This document shows positions 55,985-63,615 of a stretch of DNA of 64,000 bases, piece by piece. The DNA is from Hyphomicrobiales bacterium (GTDB taxonomy: Bacteria > Pseudomonadota > Alphaproteobacteria > Rhizobiales > NORP267). The position numbers and the translations under genes were made by a program. The notes beneath the pieces were generated by a model, which saw only the letters and a list, made by a program, of their open reading frames with translations, did not search any database and had not been told where the DNA came from. The DNA is taken from NCBI GenBank assembly GCA_021775875.1, contig JAJFHA010000017.1, positions 1 through 64,000 on the forward strand, read 5' to 3'. The stretch's first letter is position 1; each line of letters opens with the position of its first letter.

Positions 55985-56677
55985 ATGCTTGATGCTGCCC
56001 TGACATCCTTTCGCCAGGTTTTAACGCCGCCATTTCGCTCTGTGCTGTGGCGTTCGCTTGGAATAACCATTGCCGGTCTGGTCGTGATCTGGTTCGGAAT
56101 CCAGGCATTATTCGGTTATTTTATAGTAATCCCGTGGCCCTGGGTCGAGACCATGCTGGCGATTGTCGCAGGCCTTGGGATGGTGATCGGCATGACCTTT
56201 CTGATCGCCCCGGTCTCATCCATCGTTGCCGGGCTGTTTCTCGATGAAATCGCCGATCAGGTAGAAGCAGAGCATTACCCGAACGATGTTCCGGGCACCG
56301 CCCTGCCGGTCGTAAAGGCAACATTGCTGGCATCCAAATTTGCCGGATTGGTAATCCTGGTAAATATCATGGCGCTACTTTTGCTGCTCATTCCGGGCAT
56401 CAACCTGATCGCTTTTTTTGGCGCCAACGGCTATCTGCTCGGCCGGGAATTTTTCGAACTGGCCGGCCTGCGCCACCGTTCCCATGAACAGGTAACGGCG
56501 TTGCGAAAAGCCAATCAGATCCGGGTCTTTATGGCCGGTCTGATCATTGTCGGCTTGCTGGCGATCCCGATCCTCAATCTGCTGACGCCTATATTCGCCA
56601 CCACCTTCATGGTACATATCTACAAGCAGGCCGAAGCGCGTCAGCCAAGGGGTGTTCCTGAACAGCGATTGCGCTAA
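55985..56677 (+). CDS. EI24-domain (CysZ-like) membrane protein
   Basis: A 230-aa protein with four or so membrane helices: LGITIAGLVVIWFGIQALFGY, AIVAGLGMVIGMTFLIAPVSSIVAG, AGLVILVNIMALLLLLIPGINLIAFFGANGYLLGREFFELAGLR and FMAGLIIVGLLAIPILNLLTPIFATTFMVHIY. The RREFFE-like GREFFELAGLRHRS stretch and IPILNLL-P are EI24/CysZ marks. CysZ imports sulfate; here substrate is unproven. It precedes the restriction-modification gene by 12 bases. Confidence 0.88.
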   Translation: MLDAALTSFRQVLTPPFRSVLWRSLGITIAGLVVIWFGIQALFGYFIVIPWPWVETMLAIVAGLGMVIGMTFLIAPVSSIVAGLFLDEIADQVEAEHYPNDVPGTALPVVKATLLASKFAGLVILVNIMALLLLLIPGINLIAFFGANGYLLGREFFELAGLRHRSHEQVTALRKANQIRVFMAGLIIVGLLAIPILNLLTPIFATTFMVHIYKQAEARQPRGVPEQRLR

Positions 56678-56689
56678 AGTCTGCGGGTC

Positions 56690-59600
56690 ATGAGCCTTTT
56701 CAACAAACGCATACTCAAAAAATCTATTGGCAATCCAGCGCCGATCCCGTCTGCCCATTTGGAAATTCTTTCAAACTGGGCACGCACCATAAATGATCGC
56801 AGTATCTTTTCCGAAAACGAAACCCAGATCGAAGGTGATTTCAAATCCCGCATAATCGAGGCCGTACTTGGCTATATTCCGGCCGGGCTGGAGGCACCGC
56901 AAACGGTTGCGGTGCAGGAATTGATCGCGGGTGGCCGGGTTGATCTGGCGCTCGGATCGTTTGGTGATGACCGCCGGATCATCGCCCCGTTCGAATTAAA
57001 GGGCGCGAAAACCCGCGACCTTGACGCCCCAATATCGGGACGCCGGGAGACCCCGGTCGAACAGGCATGGCGCTATGCCCGGAAAAACAGCGGGACAAAA
57101 TGGGTTCTGGTATCGAATTATCTTGAAATCAGGCTCTATTCCTACGCGCTTGGCGAGCAGGAATATGAGGCTTTTTTCCTCAAAGACCTGACCGACCCGG
57201 ATGAATATGCCCGGTTTAGGCTTTTGTTGTCGGCGGAAAATTTGCTGTCCGGCAACACCCAAACCCTGCTCGATGAAAGCGGGCGCGCCGATAAGGAAAT
57301 CGGCGAAGCCCTGTACCGCGAATACCGCACCCTGCGCGAAACCCTGATCGCTGTGATCCCGGTAAAAAATTCAAGCATCGATGCCGTGACGGCGGTGGGT
57401 GCCGCCCAGAAAATCCTCGACCGGATTCTTTTTGTGGCTTTTGCCGAAGATACCGGGTTGCTGCCGGCACGCTCCCTTGAGCAGGCCTATCAACATGCCG
57501 ATCCGTATAATCCCCGGCCCGTTTGGCAAAATTTTCTCAGCCTGTTCCGCGCCGTGGATGAGGGCAACAAGGGTCTGAATATTCCGAAATATAATGGTGG
57601 CCTGTTTCAGCCTGACCCGGCGGTCGATGAAATCGAGCTGCCCGACGAGATTTGCGAAGGCTTCAAGCGGATCGGGTCTTATGATTTCGAAACCGAAGTC
57701 GGCGTCACCATTCTGGGGCGCATTTTCGAACAATCGGTCTCGGACCTTGAGCGCCTTCTGGCCCGCGCCCGGGGGGATGCTGAAGACGATTCGGACAAGA
57801 CCGGGGCAACCGGGCGGCGCAAGCGCGACGGCATCGTCTACACGCCTGATTATATCGCCCGCTTCATCGTCGAGCGTACTTTGGGCACCCACATCAACGA
57901 AATATTCCGTGCCACCATGGCGAAACATGCCAGAGGCGATGCCGACGATTATGACAATTTGCAATTCGCGCAAAATTCAGAACGCGGCAAAGCCACATGG
58001 AACAAGCGCGAACTGGAGGCCTGGACAGAATTCAGGTTTAAACTGCAAACCCTGCGGGTTGTTGATCCGGCCTGCGGGTCGGGGGTGTTTCTGGTCACCG
58101 CTTTTGACTATCTGAAAAGCGAATATGACAAGGTCAACGCCAAAATGGCGGAATTGCGCGGTAGCCCGGACCTGTTCGATCCCGACGCCGAAATTCTCAG
58201 CCAAAATCTCTACGGCGTTGATGTCAATGCCGAGAGCGTCGAGATCACCAAATTATCGCTCTGGCTGAAAACCGCCAAAAAAGGCAAGGAACTGGCCAGC
58301 CTTGACCACACCATCCGGGTTGGCGACAGCCTGATCGAAGATTCAAATTTCGCCTATCTGGAACACGGCTTCACCTGGCAAAAAGCGTTCCCCGAAGTGT
58401 TCGCCAATGGCGGCTTCGATGTGGTGCTTGGTAACCCGCCTTATGTCAGGCAGGAATTATTGTCGCCCCTGAAACCGTATTTGCAAAAGCGCTTTGAGGT
58501 TTATCACGGCGTCGCCGACCTCTATTGTTATTTCTTCGAGCGCGGCCTGCGTTTGCTGAAACCCGGTGGACGGCTGGGCTATATTTCTTCCAGCACTTTT
58601 TTCAAGACCAATTCCGGCAAGCCGTTGCGGGCCTATCTGCCAAATGCGGCGACGTTAGAGACCATCACGGATTTTGGTGATCTGCAAATTTTTGACGGTG
58701 TCACCACCTACCCGGCAATCCTCACCATGCAGCGCCGGGAGATGCCGAAAGACCATGCTTTACATTTCTGGAAGCTGGATGAAATCCCCCGCGAAAATTT
58801 CTCGAAAAGCTTTGACGCGCACGCGGAAAATTTCCCGCAAGACGCATTGACGCAGGCAAGTTGGCAACTGGAAAACCCTGCGCTCCGGGCCTTGCGCACC
58901 AAAATTGTTGAGGGAAAACAGACTCTGAAACAGGTCTATGGTTCACCATATCGCGGCGTCCTGACCGGTCGCAACGAAGCCTTCGTTATCGACCGGCAAG
59001 TGCGCGACCGGCTGGTAACGGAGGACCCGAAATCAGAAGAAATTCTGAAACCCGTATTAAAGGGAAACGAGTTGAAAAGGTGGCGAATCGAACCTGAAGA
59101 CCTTTGGCTTATATTGTTTCCGAAAGGTTGGACCGGACAAAATGTAATGACTGATAATGAAGAAACGGCTTGGAATTGGTTGACTGAACAATACCCTGCG
59201 ATTGCTGGTTGGCTTTTACCTTTCGCCGCAGTTTGCCGAAAAAGAACCGATAAGGGTAATTTTTGGTGGGAATTACGAGCGTGTGATTATTATGAGCAAT
59301 TCAAAAAACCAAAAATCTCTTATATAGAAATTTGCTCTTGGGCACCGTTTTCGTTCGATGATAAACAAAGATATCAGGAAGCCACAACTTTTTTTATTCC
59401 AGCAGCTGATCGTTTTTTGTTAGCTCTTTTGAATTCCAATCCGATATGGTTTTTTTGGGCAGCCACCACGTCATTTCTTCGGGGTGGTTATCAGCGCATG
59501 AAGAATCAATATGTTGAACCAGTCCCCATCCCCCCGGCCTTCGACACCGATAAAGCCGCGCTCGCCCGCCTCGCCGAAGCTTGCCAATTGGCGGCGGAAG

Positions 59601-59926
59601 CGCGCTACGAAAAGCAGGAGGCTTTGCGCCGCCGCATTCCTGATCTGTGCCCGCCGGACCGCGACCCAAAGCTCAATACAAAACTCAAAAACTGGTGGGT
59701 GCTGGATGATTTTAGGGTCTTCCGGGCCGAAGTGAAAAAGCACTTCAAGGCCGATATCCCCTTGGCCGAGCGCACCGACTGGGAAACCTGGTTCACCCGC
59801 GAAAGGGGAGAGATTGCCCGCCTGTCTTCAGAAATCGCCCGCTTTGAGGCCGATATCAACAAAATCGTCTACCGCCTGTTTGACTTGACCTCAGACGAAA
59901 TCACCTTGCTGGAAGCAAATATCTGA
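56690..59926 (+). CDS. Type IIG restriction-modification enzyme (Eco57I/MmeI-like)
   Basis: A 1078-aa single chain that both cuts and methylates. The N-terminal nuclease has GGRVDLALG near residue 83 and PFELKGAK near 100, fitting PD-(D/E)xK. Helical linker follows. The gamma-class N6-adenine methyltransferase has motif I VVDPACGSGVFLVTAFDYL near 457 and motif IV VVLGNPPYVRQELL near 581. The remainder is a TaqI-like specificity region (KQVYGSPYRGVLTGRNEAFVIDR ... NELKRW) and a helical C-terminus. About 59040-59515 is much more AT-rich than the flanks. No separate S or R subunit lies nearby, as expected for this type. Confidence 0.88.
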   Translation: MSLFNKRILKKSIGNPAPIPSAHLEILSNWARTINDRSIFSENETQIEGDFKSRIIEAVLGYIPAGLEAPQTVAVQELIAGGRVDLALGSFGDDRRIIAPFELKGAKTRDLDAPISGRRETPVEQAWRYARKNSGTKWVLVSNYLEIRLYSYALGEQEYEAFFLKDLTDPDEYARFRLLLSAENLLSGNTQTLLDESGRADKEIGEALYREYRTLRETLIAVIPVKNSSIDAVTAVGAAQKILDRILFVAFAEDTGLLPARSLEQAYQHADPYNPRPVWQNFLSLFRAVDEGNKGLNIPKYNGGLFQPDPAVDEIELPDEICEGFKRIGSYDFETEVGVTILGRIFEQSVSDLERLLARARGDAEDDSDKTGATGRRKRDGIVYTPDYIARFIVERTLGTHINEIFRATMAKHARGDADDYDNLQFAQNSERGKATWNKRELEAWTEFRFKLQTLRVVDPACGSGVFLVTAFDYLKSEYDKVNAKMAELRGSPDLFDPDAEILSQNLYGVDVNAESVEITKLSLWLKTAKKGKELASLDHTIRVGDSLIEDSNFAYLEHGFTWQKAFPEVFANGGFDVVLGNPPYVRQELLSPLKPYLQKRFEVYHGVADLYCYFFERGLRLLKPGGRLGYISSSTFFKTNSGKPLRAYLPNAATLETITDFGDLQIFDGVTTYPAILTMQRREMPKDHALHFWKLDEIPRENFSKSFDAHAENFPQDALTQASWQLENPALRALRTKIVEGKQTLKQVYGSPYRGVLTGRNEAFVIDRQVRDRLVTEDPKSEEILKPVLKGNELKRWRIEPEDLWLILFPKGWTGQNVMTDNEETAWNWLTEQYPAIAGWLLPFAAVCRKRTDKGNFWWELRACDYYEQFKKPKISYIEICSWAPFSFDDKQRYQEATTFFIPAADRFLLALLNSNPIWFFWAATTSFLRGGYQRMKNQYVEPVPIPPAFDTDKAALARLAEACQLAAEARYEKQEALRRRIPDLCPPDRDPKLNTKLKNWWVLDDFRVFRAEVKKHFKADIPLAERTDWETWFTRERGEIARLSSEIARFEADINKIVYRLFDLTSDEITLLEANI
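59040..59515 (+). other. Atypical AT-rich target-recognition segment
   Basis: Within the restriction-modification gene, codons here are A/T-ending (GAATTACGAGCGTGTGATTATTATGAG, AAACCAAAAATCTCTTAT) while flanking codons are GC-ending. The boundaries fall in the region that reads the DNA target in type IIG enzymes. I infer exchange of the specificity domain by recombination. Confidence 0.6.
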
Positions 59927-59971
59927 CGCCTTCATTCTGGTATTCACCGGAATTTCGATGAGGATGGCAAC

Positions 59972-60010
59972 CCCTCACCCTGTCCCTCTCCCACCGGGGA
60001 GAGGGGACGG
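59972..60010. repeat. GC-rich hairpin repeat after the restriction gene
   Basis: GTCCCTCTCCC (59982-59992) pairs with GGGAGAGGGGAC (about 59997-60008) across a three-base loop. The form CCCTCACCC-N-CCCTCTCCC...GGGAGAGGGG is a common dispersed intergenic element in proteobacteria. It may stop transcription from the upstream gene. Confidence 0.55.
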
Positions 60011-60058
60011 AGACGGCGAGGTTAATGTTTGTTGAAATTCCCGAACCAAGCGGCCACC

Positions 60059-60193
60059 TCGTCATCCCGGACAAGCAGCGGCCGGGATGGTTTACATGCC
60101 TCGATGCTGACCCGCCGCGCGATCCGGGATCCAGTCTAGCGATTTCGCTATGGCAACATTGCTCTGGATTCCGGCTTATCGCCGGAATGACGA
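60059..60193. repeat. 135-bp MITE-like element with imperfect terminal inverted repeats
   Basis: TCGTCATCCCGG (60059-60070) and CCGGAATGACGA (60182-60193) are inverted with one mismatch. Inside lie further palindromes such as ATTCCGGCTTATCGCCGGAAT. The ORF 60025-60213 runs through it and is not a gene. The style matches non-autonomous palindromic intergenic repeats of alphaproteobacteria. Confidence 0.55.
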
Positions 60194-60209: not shown

Positions 60210-60938
60210 CTAAAGCATATCGGTCTTGTCTTCAAAAAGGCAGAGATCGGAAATCAGACATGCCGGGCAATCGGGTTTACGCGCTTTGCACACATAGCGC
60301 CCGTGCAGGATCAGCCAGTGATGGGCATGGAGCCCGAATTCTTCAGGCACATTGGCATCAAGCGCTTTTTCAACTGCCAGCACATCTTTGCCGGGTGCCA
60401 GACCGGTGCGGTTCGAGATGCGGAAAATATGGGTGTCCACCGCCATGGTCGGGTGCCCGAAAGCGATATTGAGGACCACATTGGCGGTCTTGCGGCCAAC
60501 GCCGGGTAAGGAAACAAGGGCGTCGCGGTCTTCGGGAATTTTGCCGTCAAATTCAGCAATCAGTTTTTCGGAAAGGCCAATGACATTTTTCGCCTTGTTG
60601 CGAAACAGACCGATAGTGCGGATATGGTCCCGGACTTGATCTTCGCCAAGCGCCAGCATCTTCTGTGGCGTATCGGCAATCTCGAATAAAGCTTTGGTCG
60701 CCTTGTTGACACCGGCATCGGTCGCTTGGGCTGATAATACCACTGCCACCAGCAGGGTAAAATGATTGATATAATCAAGTTCGCCCTTCGGGTGCGGATC
60801 ATTATCCCGGAACCGCTTGAAAATCTCGAACCGGGCTGGTTCGTCAAGCGGTTTTGATAATCCGGGCGCCGGTTTTTTCGCCTGTACTGGTTTTTTCGCC
60901 CGCGCTGGTTTTTTCGTATGTGTCTTGGATTTAGCCAT
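60210..60938 (-). CDS. nth: Endonuclease III
   Basis: A 242-aa base-excision glycosylase/AP lyase for oxidised pyrimidines. HhH motif SLPGVGRKTANVVL with the catalytic Lys, AVDTHIFRISNRTGL with the catalytic Asp, and the 4Fe-4S site CKARKPDCPACLISDLC (C-x6-C-x2-C-x5-C) are complete. ATG 60938 gives an unusual basic N-terminal tail (KKPARAKKPVQAKKPAPG) before the domain. The tracked 310-aa version adds 68 unrelated residues. Confidence 0.95.
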   Translation of the reverse strand: MAKSKTHTKKPARAKKPVQAKKPAPGLSKPLDEPARFEIFKRFRDNDPHPKGELDYINHFTLLVAVVLSAQATDAGVNKATKALFEIADTPQKMLALGEDQVRDHIRTIGLFRNKAKNVIGLSEKLIAEFDGKIPEDRDALVSLPGVGRKTANVVLNIAFGHPTMAVDTHIFRISNRTGLAPGKDVLAVEKALDANVPEEFGLHAHHWLILHGRYVCKARKPDCPACLISDLCLFEDKTDML

Positions 60939-61145
60939 GGCTGACCTATACTCGGGGTCTGCGCGGCCCCGCAACCCGATTCCTGTTTTTATTCCGGAGC
61001 TTCGCCATGGCCGGGGAAAAACCTGAAACCTGATCAGGAAACGGGTGGCGGAAGGGATCAGGAATACCAATAATGAGGCTGAAGATAATAACCAAGGACA
61101 TGTCCCATGTTGCTCGATCCAGTCGCCCCGCAAGGAGGGCATAAA

Positions 61146-62039
61146 ATGGCTCCGATAAATTCAAGCCCGGCGGATGATTATGATGCGGTGCGCCGGTCGG
61201 TCGAATATCTGATCGACAATTGGCGCAACCAGCCGCCTCTGGGGGCGGTCGCGAAGCATGTGGGATTGAACGAGACCCGGTTTCAGAAATTGTTCAAGCG
61301 CTGGGCCGGGATCTCACCCAAGGATTTTGTCCAGGCCCTGACCATCGATCATGCCCGGTATCTGTTGCGCGATTCAGCGTCTATTCTGGATGCGGCCTAT
61401 GAGGTCGGCCTGTCCGGGCCGGGCCGGTTGCATGACCTATTCGTGACCCACGAGGCCATGACACCCGGCGAATATAAGGCCGGTGGTGCGGGGCTTGAAA
61501 TGATCTACGGGTTTCATGATTGCCCGTTTGGTGAAGCTCTGGTCATGGCGACTTCACGAGGCTTGTCCGGGCTTGCTTTTTGCAATGATATCCGGGGCCG
61601 GGCACCGACGCTTGCCGATATGATCCGACGCTGGCCCAACGCGACTTTCCGGGAAGACCCCGATGCCACGGCTCACTATGCCGCCCGGATTTTCGACCCT
61701 GAACAATGGCGCAGCGAAGAACCCTTACGGGTCGTCATGATAGGCACGGATTTCGAGATCCGGGTCTGGGAAAAATTGCTACGCATTCCTGTCGGTGCAG
61801 CCACCACATATGGCGATCTGGCGGCGGCGTTAGGCAAACCAAAAGCCGCCCGCGCGGTCGGCTCTGCAGTTGGCCGCAATCCGGTTTCTTTCGTGGTGCC
61901 ATGCCACCGGGTGCTGGGCAAAACCGGCAGCGTCACCGGCTATCATTGGGGCGTGACGCGCAAGCACGCCATCATTGGCTGGGAGACCGGGCTGATCAAT
62001 AAATCTTCAGAATCCCTCTCCCTCGGGGATTTTGGGTAA
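61146..62039 (+). CDS. AraC-HTH/Ogt fusion, Ada-like DNA alkylation repair protein
   Basis: A 297-aa protein with an N-terminal AraC-type HTH (VEYLIDNWRNQPPLGAVAKHVGLNETRFQKLFKRWAGISPKDFVQAL) and a C-terminal O6-alkylguanine methyltransferase. FVVPCHRVLGKTGSVTGYHWGVTRKHAIIGWE has the acceptor Cys in PCHRV. The N-terminal Cys-rich zinc domain of E. coli Ada, which senses phosphotriesters, is absent. ATG 61146 follows AAGGAGG. It diverges from nth, another DNA repair gene. Confidence 0.92.
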   Translation: MAPINSSPADDYDAVRRSVEYLIDNWRNQPPLGAVAKHVGLNETRFQKLFKRWAGISPKDFVQALTIDHARYLLRDSASILDAAYEVGLSGPGRLHDLFVTHEAMTPGEYKAGGAGLEMIYGFHDCPFGEALVMATSRGLSGLAFCNDIRGRAPTLADMIRRWPNATFREDPDATAHYAARIFDPEQWRSEEPLRVVMIGTDFEIRVWEKLLRIPVGAATTYGDLAAALGKPKAARAVGSAVGRNPVSFVVPCHRVLGKTGSVTGYHWGVTRKHAIIGWETGLINKSSESLSLGDFG

Positions 62040-62360
62040 TTCACAACCATTTTGTTCCGCGAGATCAGATAACACCAAATTTCGTCGAACAATGGCGTCT
62101 TGTTCGCTTTCTATTGAATTTGACGCATCGATCATCAAAGGCGACATCAATAGAAAGCCAATATTATTGGCAAGCCGCGTCTGCTTTTCACTGTCAAGAT
62201 CAGCGATTCGCCTCAGATTAAACTCGTATTCTGCGGAAATGTGATTGCAGGATAAATTCATATCGCTAGACCGGGTTTCAGTTACTTCATTCGCCACCCG
62301 ACCGCCGCAACCGGTTACACATACAACAATTAGCAACGTGAAAATGAATCTAACGTGCAA
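62007..62360 (-). CDS. Small putative lipoprotein, divergent partner of the next gene
   Basis: A 117-aa protein if started at TTG 62360 after GGGGA. LIVVCVTGC is a lipobox, giving a short lipoprotein. The mature part keeps LSCNHISAEYEFNLRRIADLDSEKQTRLANNIGFLLMSPLMIDASNS and a final Cys in LAEQNGCEL, a pattern I associate with short envelope proteins of unknown role. Its 3' end overlaps the Ada-like gene by 33 bases. The tracked 230-aa ORF runs antisense through the neighbouring lipoprotein. Confidence 0.7.
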   Translation of the reverse strand: MHVRFIFTLLIVVCVTGCGGRVANEVTETRSSDMNLSCNHISAEYEFNLRRIADLDSEKQTRLANNIGFLLMSPLMIDASNSIESEQDAIVRRNLVLSDLAEQNGCELPKIPEGEGF

Positions 62361-62448
62361 ATTTGTAATCCCCGATGTATGATTTACTTTGATTTTTCTG
62401 TAAGCGAGTCTATTCGTTATTTCGGTTTTGTGTGGAGATATATTTAAA

Positions 62449-62988
62449 ATGAATTTTCGTCTTGTGTTTCTGGTATGTACGGCCTTCCTTCTTGCAGGCT
62501 GTGCATCCGGCGCACGTCCTGGCGCCATGACTACAGGAATAACAAATAATATTGTAATTACTGAAAATTCAAAATTACACAAATCTATTTCATTGATCGA
62601 AACTACCGGTGGTCGGGAGACCAATCCACTCTGGACATCGCAAGTTTCTTCGTCTGATTTTGAAGCGGCTCTTAAGCAATCACTTGCTCTCAACGCCATG
62701 CTTGCAGATGCCGACCCAAAATTTGAACTGAAAGCCGAGTTGTTGGGTCTCGATCAACCGGTAATCGGATTTGATTTTACGGTCACGGCAAGAGTGCATT
62801 ATGTCCTTATCGAGAAAGAAAATGGAAATGTGGTTTTTGAACAGGATATTGTTTCACCTTATACCGCAGATTTCTCTGACTCACTTGTTGCAGTTGAGCG
62901 TCTTCGGTTGGCGAATGAAGGTGCGGTAAAGGCGAATATCGAAATGTTCATTCAATCATTGCAACAAACGCCAGCATTGCGAAATTAA
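62449..62988 (+). CDS. Putative lipoprotein of unknown function
   Basis: A 179-aa protein with signal peptide and lipobox FLLAGC. ATG 62449 lies 11 bases after GGAG. The mature domain (VVITENSKLHKSISLIETTGGRETNPLWTSQVSS-like, then FEAALKQSLALNAMLADADPKFELKAELLGLDQP) looks like a compact alpha/beta envelope domain that recurs in alphaproteobacterial lipoproteins. Function is unknown. It is divergent from the lipoprotein at 62007-62360 across an 88-bp AT-rich gap. Confidence 0.75.
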   Translation: MNFRLVFLVCTAFLLAGCASGARPGAMTTGITNNIVITENSKLHKSISLIETTGGRETNPLWTSQVSSSDFEAALKQSLALNAMLADADPKFELKAELLGLDQPVIGFDFTVTARVHYVLIEKENGNVVFEQDIVSPYTADFSDSLVAVERLRLANEGAVKANIEMFIQSLQQTPALRN

Positions 62989-62994
62989 CCTGTT

Positions 62995-63615
62995 TCAGGC
63001 TTCGAGAATACGCTTCTCCAGAACCCTGGTATCGTCTCCGAGACGATAAACCAGCGGTACGCCGGTGCCGAGATTGACGCCTGTAATTTCATCCCGGCCC
63101 AGTCCTTCAAGCACCATGACAAGGGCACGCAGGGAATTTCCATGGGCGGCGACAATGACTCTTTTCCCGGCCATCACATCGGGCAGGATTTTGGTCAGGT
63201 AATAGGGCAGCACCCGCGCTGCGGTATCCTTGAGGCTTTCACCACCGGGTGGCGGAATATCATAAGACCGGCGCCAGATATGGACCTGTTCGTCGCCCCA
63301 TTTTTTCCGCGCATCATCCTTGTTGAGGCCAACGAGGTCACCGTAATCGCGCTCATTCAGTGCTTCATCCTCGATGGTTTCAAGATCAGGCTGGCCGATC
63401 TCATCAAGGATCAACTCAAGTGTCTTTTGCGCCCGCTCCAGTTTGCTCGTATAGGCTAGGTCAAACTGCATCTCTTCGCCTGCCATCCGAACCCCGGCGG
63501 CTTTGGCCTCAATGATGCCTTTTTCCGTGAGGCTGACATCCTTCCAGCCGGTGAACAGGTTTTTGAGGTTCCATTCGCTCTGGCCGTGGCGCACAAGCAC
63601 TAAAAGTCGTTCCAT
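62995..63615 (-). CDS. gpmA: 2,3-bisphosphoglycerate-dependent phosphoglycerate mutase
   Basis: A 206-aa histidine-phosphatase fold enzyme of glycolysis. [30 protein letters not shown] holds the phospho-His, [44 protein letters not shown] the substrate loop, and [20 protein letters not shown] the second His. ATG 63615 follows GGAG. It lies downstream of dapB on the same strand. Confidence 0.95.

Follow-up and report, generated by a model that had tools for sequence, protein, structure and literature searches.

The window analyzed here is a 64,000-nucleotide stretch of contig JAJFHA010000017.1 from a Hyphomicrobiales bacterium, and on its forward strand it carries a single-chain type IIG restriction-modification gene of 1078 amino acids (56690–59926, hereafter q). 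We consider it highly probable (about 0.88) that positions 59054–59505 of this gene are a target-recognition domain (TRD) module that was replaced by recombination, in a gene that was otherwise inherited vertically. The stretch has clear boundaries and matches a TRD, its phylogeny conflicts with that of the backbone (the parts of the gene other than the TRD), and a species of the same genus carries a different TRD at the same chromosomal site.

Probable exchange of the target-recognition domain in q

The gene was characterized by its open reading frame (ORF), PADLOC and Pfam searches, and an AlphaFold model (pLDDT 83, pTM 0.66). The PADLOC model REase_MTase_IIG matches the protein end to end (residues 36–1075, 1e-149). 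The order of its domains is nuclease, helical spacer, gamma-class N6-methyladenine (m6A) methyltransferase (MTase), TRD, and C-terminal helices, and q is a type IIG enzyme in that nuclease, MTase, and TRD are joined in a single chain. Pfam matches included Eco57I, N6_Mtase, TaqI_C (residues 787–947), and MmeI_Mtase (54.9, cut-off 27), with weak matches below the cut-off to MmeI_hel (23.8) and MmeI_N (19.9). In a Foldseek search the model matched DNA-bound CamA, M.BseCI, and MmeI across the MTase and the TRD. The TaqI_C match and the fold match thus identify the AT-rich segment of q as its TRD, where an earlier reading of the sequence (the original prediction) had placed it.

Among the relatives compared, G001 and G002 belong to the same genus as the organism of the window and G003 to the same family. 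In G001 and G003 the EI24/CysZ-like gene (55985–56677, forward strand) and the endonuclease III-like gene nth (60210–61142, reverse strand), which flank q and mark its insertion site, are directly adjacent, leaving an empty site; the homologue of G003 sits on another contig, away from this site. The homologue of G002 is at the same site as q, beside nth and in the same orientation. Over the part present in G002 (codons 464–1078), the MTase part is 88.8% identical in DNA up to 59053 by blastn, and the flanking chromosome (61–64 kb of the window) is 87–88% identical. Since the divergence of the MTase part equals that of the neighboring chromosome, the backbone of q looks vertically inherited.

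Similarity to G002 is interrupted over the TRD only. No blastn match was found between q and G002 across 59054–59505, and DNA identity returns at 81% from 59506. At the protein level, identity is 0.93–0.94 in the MTase, 0.35–0.36 in the TRD, and 0.77–0.78 in the C-terminus. A codon-level comparison located the fall at residues 789–793 and the recovery at residues 940–946, in or beside the conserved ILKP and QYVE-PIP stretches. The left junction lies at the conserved DPKSEEILKP (residues 779–788, 59024–59053, forward strand), whose last 12 bases (59042–59053) are identical in G002, and the right junction at the conserved QYVEPVPIPP (residues 940–949, 59507–59536, forward strand), beside which blastn similarity resumes. 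The edges of homology to G002 (59053/59506) agree within 25 bases with the edges found from composition alone (59030/59521). Conversely, the TRD of the distant homologue G013 is 0.50 identical to that of q although its MTase is just 0.56 identical. The original prediction had proposed a domain exchange, to be abandoned if homologues with the same flanks all shared the segment. They do not: G002 matches q in the flanks and has another TRD.

The same conflict is seen in the trees. In the backbone tree q groups with G002 (support 100/100). In the TRD tree q groups with G013, G643, and a sequence from Erythrobacter (support 100/99), while G002 groups with G778, G048, and a sequence from Sphingomonadales (support 100/100). 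The approximately unbiased (AU) test rejects q with G002 in the TRD (p=1.5e-10), and it also rejects q with G013 and G643 in the backbone (p=0.02). The first part of the TRD (TRD-N) falls into three classes that are told apart by motifs and insertions. Class A has the motif KRATKQ-WFELQQ, class B a long insert and GRK-G-W-E-QDT, and class C an insert before YPAI and KR-DKG--WWELRAC. Class C is carried by q, G013, G643, and an Erythrobacter metagenome-assembled genome (MAG), whereas class B is carried by G002, G048, G778, a Sphingomonadales MAG, and a viral contig. The insertions that mark its class are thus shared by q with distant backbones, and the backbone tree, which holds 24 sequences, requires at least 6 changes of TRD-N class.

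In the exchange that we propose, the crossovers probably took place in or next to SEEILKP at the left edge and QYVE-PIP at the right edge, and crossovers at such conserved stretches would keep the reading frame and the domain junctions intact. The incoming allele would have been a class C TRD-N of the type found with the distant backbones G013, G643, and the Erythrobacter MAG, and at this site the congener G002 has a different allele, one of class B. With a single TRD directing methylation as well as cutting, both specificities should be altered together by one exchange, and the resulting enzyme would be viable and have a new m6A motif, probably an asymmetric one. Judging from the replaced base-contact positions, q is likely to have a new recognition sequence that differs from the motif of G002; the motif itself is not readable from the sequence beyond position-by-position hints.

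Composition of the segment and alternative explanations

Third-position GC (GC3) along q was examined by a likelihood scan that sought its most deviant segment, with 200 synonymous-codon-preserving shuffles as the null. The best boundaries were 59030–59521 (codons 781–944, forward strand), within which GC3 is 0.335 against 0.60 gene-wide. The log-likelihood ratio was 27.8, compared with a mean of 5.1 and a maximum of 9.7 in the shuffles, none of which reached it. The AT-rich segment that had been reported at 59040–59515 is thus real and its shift significant, and the earlier edges were at most 10 bases off. Overall GC falls to 0.39 at 59150–59449. The window has 19 non-overlapping ORFs that are 320 codons or longer, and over 157 codons none of the others dips as deeply as q (-0.30), the next being -0.16.

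An AT-rich TRD is, however, a habit of the whole family, in which the dip of q is stronger than usual without being unique. GC3 of the TRD is below that of the rest of its own gene in 26 of the 29 family sequences, q included (Wilcoxon p=1e-7, an optimistic value, as are the others in these tests, since the homologues are kin). The mean offset is -0.12 after amino-acid correction, and the dip persists in 25 of 28 with control for amino acid and conservation. The dip of q is 2.4 standard deviations below the expectation from the other members and is exceeded by G003 only. Across the family, TRD GC3 tracks that of the rest of the gene with a slope of 0.85, not near zero, and a common AT-rich pool of TRDs is therefore not favored. 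Composition alone was likewise rejected as proof of import, and in this family an AT-rich TRD by itself is no sign of recent import. What had been taken from composition as a sign of exchange is thus weaker than it looked, and the exchange is held up instead by homology and phylogeny.

These results raise the possibility, on balance a doubtful one, that the dip is intrinsic to the TRD, a variable domain in which codon choice or weak constraint would produce it, and carries no information on exchange. The family-wide dip, its persistence under control, and the tracking of the rest of the gene all speak for it. On the other hand, the depth of the dip in q exceeds what the family leads one to expect, and the dip is not a rule for all TaqI_C domains, being present in 7 of 11 other TaqI_C-domain genes (p=0.32). 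Moreover, an intrinsic dip explains neither why DNA homology is lost at these very edges nor why the trees disagree and class insertions are shared, and it already fails to cover all the observations.

Several observations weigh against an exchange in q. No near-identical donor was found, the best TRD identity being 50% (G013); a plasmid search with the segment DNA and a scan of viral contigs with the segment gave no match, and at the protein level the donor search returned just distant matches in plasmids and phages. A contig end truncates the G002 copy. Because 26 of the 29 sequences show the dip, composition alone is weak evidence. The next backbone relatives are of class A, so G002 may also have been replaced and the direction of the exchange is tentative. 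TRDs evolve fast, and part of the TRD divergence could be ordinary, which is not the whole explanation because class-specific insertions are shared and because of the AU result. Fast divergence in place, in which the TRD diverged under phage selection and nothing was imported, fits the empty donor search and is nevertheless unlikely. It does not account for the sharp edges at which identity to G002 (about 0.9) drops to about 0.35 and then recovers, for a TRD nearer to G013 (50%) than to the 93%-identical congener (36%), for the rejection of q with G002 in the TRD tree, or for the presence of one insert and motif in four distant backbones.

Replacement of the whole gene in one congener at the same site, in which case the copies of q and G002 would not be alleles of a single inherited gene, would suit a gene that is patchy, with an empty site in G001 and G003, and that has plasmid-borne homologues. 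It is very unlikely, given that the MTase differs from G002 as much as the flanking chromosome does and only the TRD stretch departs. Least probable of all is a chimeric assembly in which two strains were joined at conserved motifs. The breakpoints do lie within conserved stretches, but a chimera would need two frame-keeping joins within about 450 bases, in a 184-kb contig from a genome of 28 contigs with a contamination of 0.02.

Two modules within the target-recognition domain

The TRD of q can be divided into TRD-N (codons 789–870, 59054–59299, forward strand), with the class C insert before YPAI and the KRTDKGNFWWELRAC motif, and TRD-C (codons 871–940, 59300–59509, forward strand). Distances among nuclease, MTase, and C-terminus are well correlated in the family (Mantel r 0.79–0.84), compared with 0.23 between TRD-N and TRD-C and 0.06–0.33 between either of them and the backbone, although saturated distances in fast-evolving TRDs could depress these values. 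TRD-N identity depends on the TRD-N class (0.678 vs 0.345), whereas TRD-C identity is independent of it (0.376 vs 0.362). Two pairs show a half-exchange directly in their sequences. The viral contig L094 and Pseudosulfitobacter are 88% identical in the MTase, 42% in TRD-N, and 70% in TRD-C; G013 and Rhizobium are 34% identical in TRD-N and 61% in TRD-C, with a two-residue insertion in common.

The division also agrees with MmeI and CamA, where each half of the TRD contacts base pairs of its own. The TRD-N of MmeI contacts base pairs 1 and 2, and its TRD-C all the others (PMC4833311). TRD-C terminates in R-M-K in q and in E-L-R in G002; as the MmeI pair E806/R808 sets C:G at the final base (PMC4833311), this resemblance is a weak hint that q and G002 may recognize different bases directly after the methylated A. 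In CamA, residues 425–441 contact base pairs 1–3 and residues 455–521 contact base pairs 4–6, and the base contacts include 438, 439, 455, 456, 472, and 473 (PMC8187626). When aligned to the family, CamA 438 and 439 tell the TRD-N classes apart (Q/Q, Q/D, R/A), while 455, 456, 472, and 473 vary among TRD-C types; the alignment near 346–349 and 425 is unreliable and was not used. We therefore lean, with some reserve, towards the view that the TRD consists of two half-site cassettes, each shuffled naturally without regard to the other or to the backbone, to give combinatorial specificity. In the part of the literature covered, no account was found of single-chain type IIG enzymes whose TRD halves are shuffled independently in nature. 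If the two halves do move separately, the family would be a set of half-site modules, the methylomes of a few hosts could yield recognition rules, and the family would show the natural joining points of hybrid enzymes.

Other features and comparison with known systems

The putative PD-(D/E)xK-type nuclease motif of q, D85...E102-L-K104 (56942–57001, forward strand), keeps its D...ExK in near homologues. MTase motif I is DPACGSG (residues 459–465, 58064–58084, forward strand) and motif IV is NPPY (residues 582–585, 58433–58444, forward strand). The C-terminal helical region (codons 952–1078, 59543–59923, forward strand), with helices at 952–986 and 1025–1063 in the model, is 77–78% identical to G002 and follows the history of the backbone. 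The enzyme is predicted to be active, and as a type IIG enzyme it would methylate one adenine and cut at a fixed distance from an asymmetric site. A BREX PglX/BrxX assignment was rejected, the score being 115.9 bits against a curated cut-off of 500 and the neighbors being EI24-like, nth, and PfkB genes.

Downstream of q there is a short GC-rich stem-loop repeat (59971–60009, CCCTCTCCC...GGGAGAGGG), with several more copies in the genome, and a dispersed repeat of about 140 bases (60055–60193) with 12-base inverted ends TCGTCATCCCGG / CCGGAATGACGA, with about 14 near-full and many partial copies. Positions 62000–63000 have low GC (0.38–0.45) and small ORFs on either strand. In Rhodobacterales plasmids (L054, L056, L059) the q homologue lies directly 3' of a hypothetical gene and an AbiEii-type gene, a recurring trio, and the homologue of Phaeobacter piscinae (L059, 3001–7865) is interrupted by an IS1247-type element just ahead of its TRD part.

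TRD exchange is a known route by which defense enzymes switch their target, and q is a well-resolved new case of it. Such exchange is known from type I systems, from IIG systems with S subunits (PMC3077401, PMC3983042), and also from type III. As in q, TRD exchange and domain movement in S subunits swap recognition modules inside conserved genes and alter specificity, but those systems have two TRDs and flanking repeats, whereas q has one TaqI_C TRD in a bifunctional chain (repeats around its TRD were not searched for). Type III Mod is a different kind of methyltransferase from that of q and, unlike q, has a separate restriction subunit. The movement of Mod TRDs resembles that in q in its inferred crossovers at conserved protein motifs flanking the TRD (as summarised in PMC3983042).

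Closer to q are TaqII and TaqIII of Thermus, single-chain type IIC/IIG enzymes whose nuclease, helical, and MTase parts are similar, whose TRD is variable, and which recognize different sequences (PMC5587805). Unlike q and G002, they are paralogues in one genome with measured specificities, and in their TRDs they resemble type ISP enzymes. CamA of Clostridioides difficile (PMC8187626) is the best PDB match to the MTase and TRD of q by both profile and fold, with alignable contacts; it is an orphan methyltransferase without a nuclease, and its base contacts are conserved among CamA orthologues. MmeI, of type IIL, shares with q the single chain of nuclease, spacer, gamma MTase, TRD, and C-terminal helices, a two-subdomain TRD, and the Foldseek match, at about 14% identity in the structural match (PMC4833311). 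A bifunctional enzyme is expected to shift its specificity with ease, since one TRD serves its two activities, and diversity in the MmeI family is described as changes of contact residues within a shared TRD (PMC4833311), whereas in the family of q whole modules are replaced. The q/G002 pair is a clean natural case of a recognition module changed at one site between two related species, with unusually clear edges in both composition and homology, and the less familiar part is the natural shuffling of half-TRDs in single-chain type IIG enzymes.
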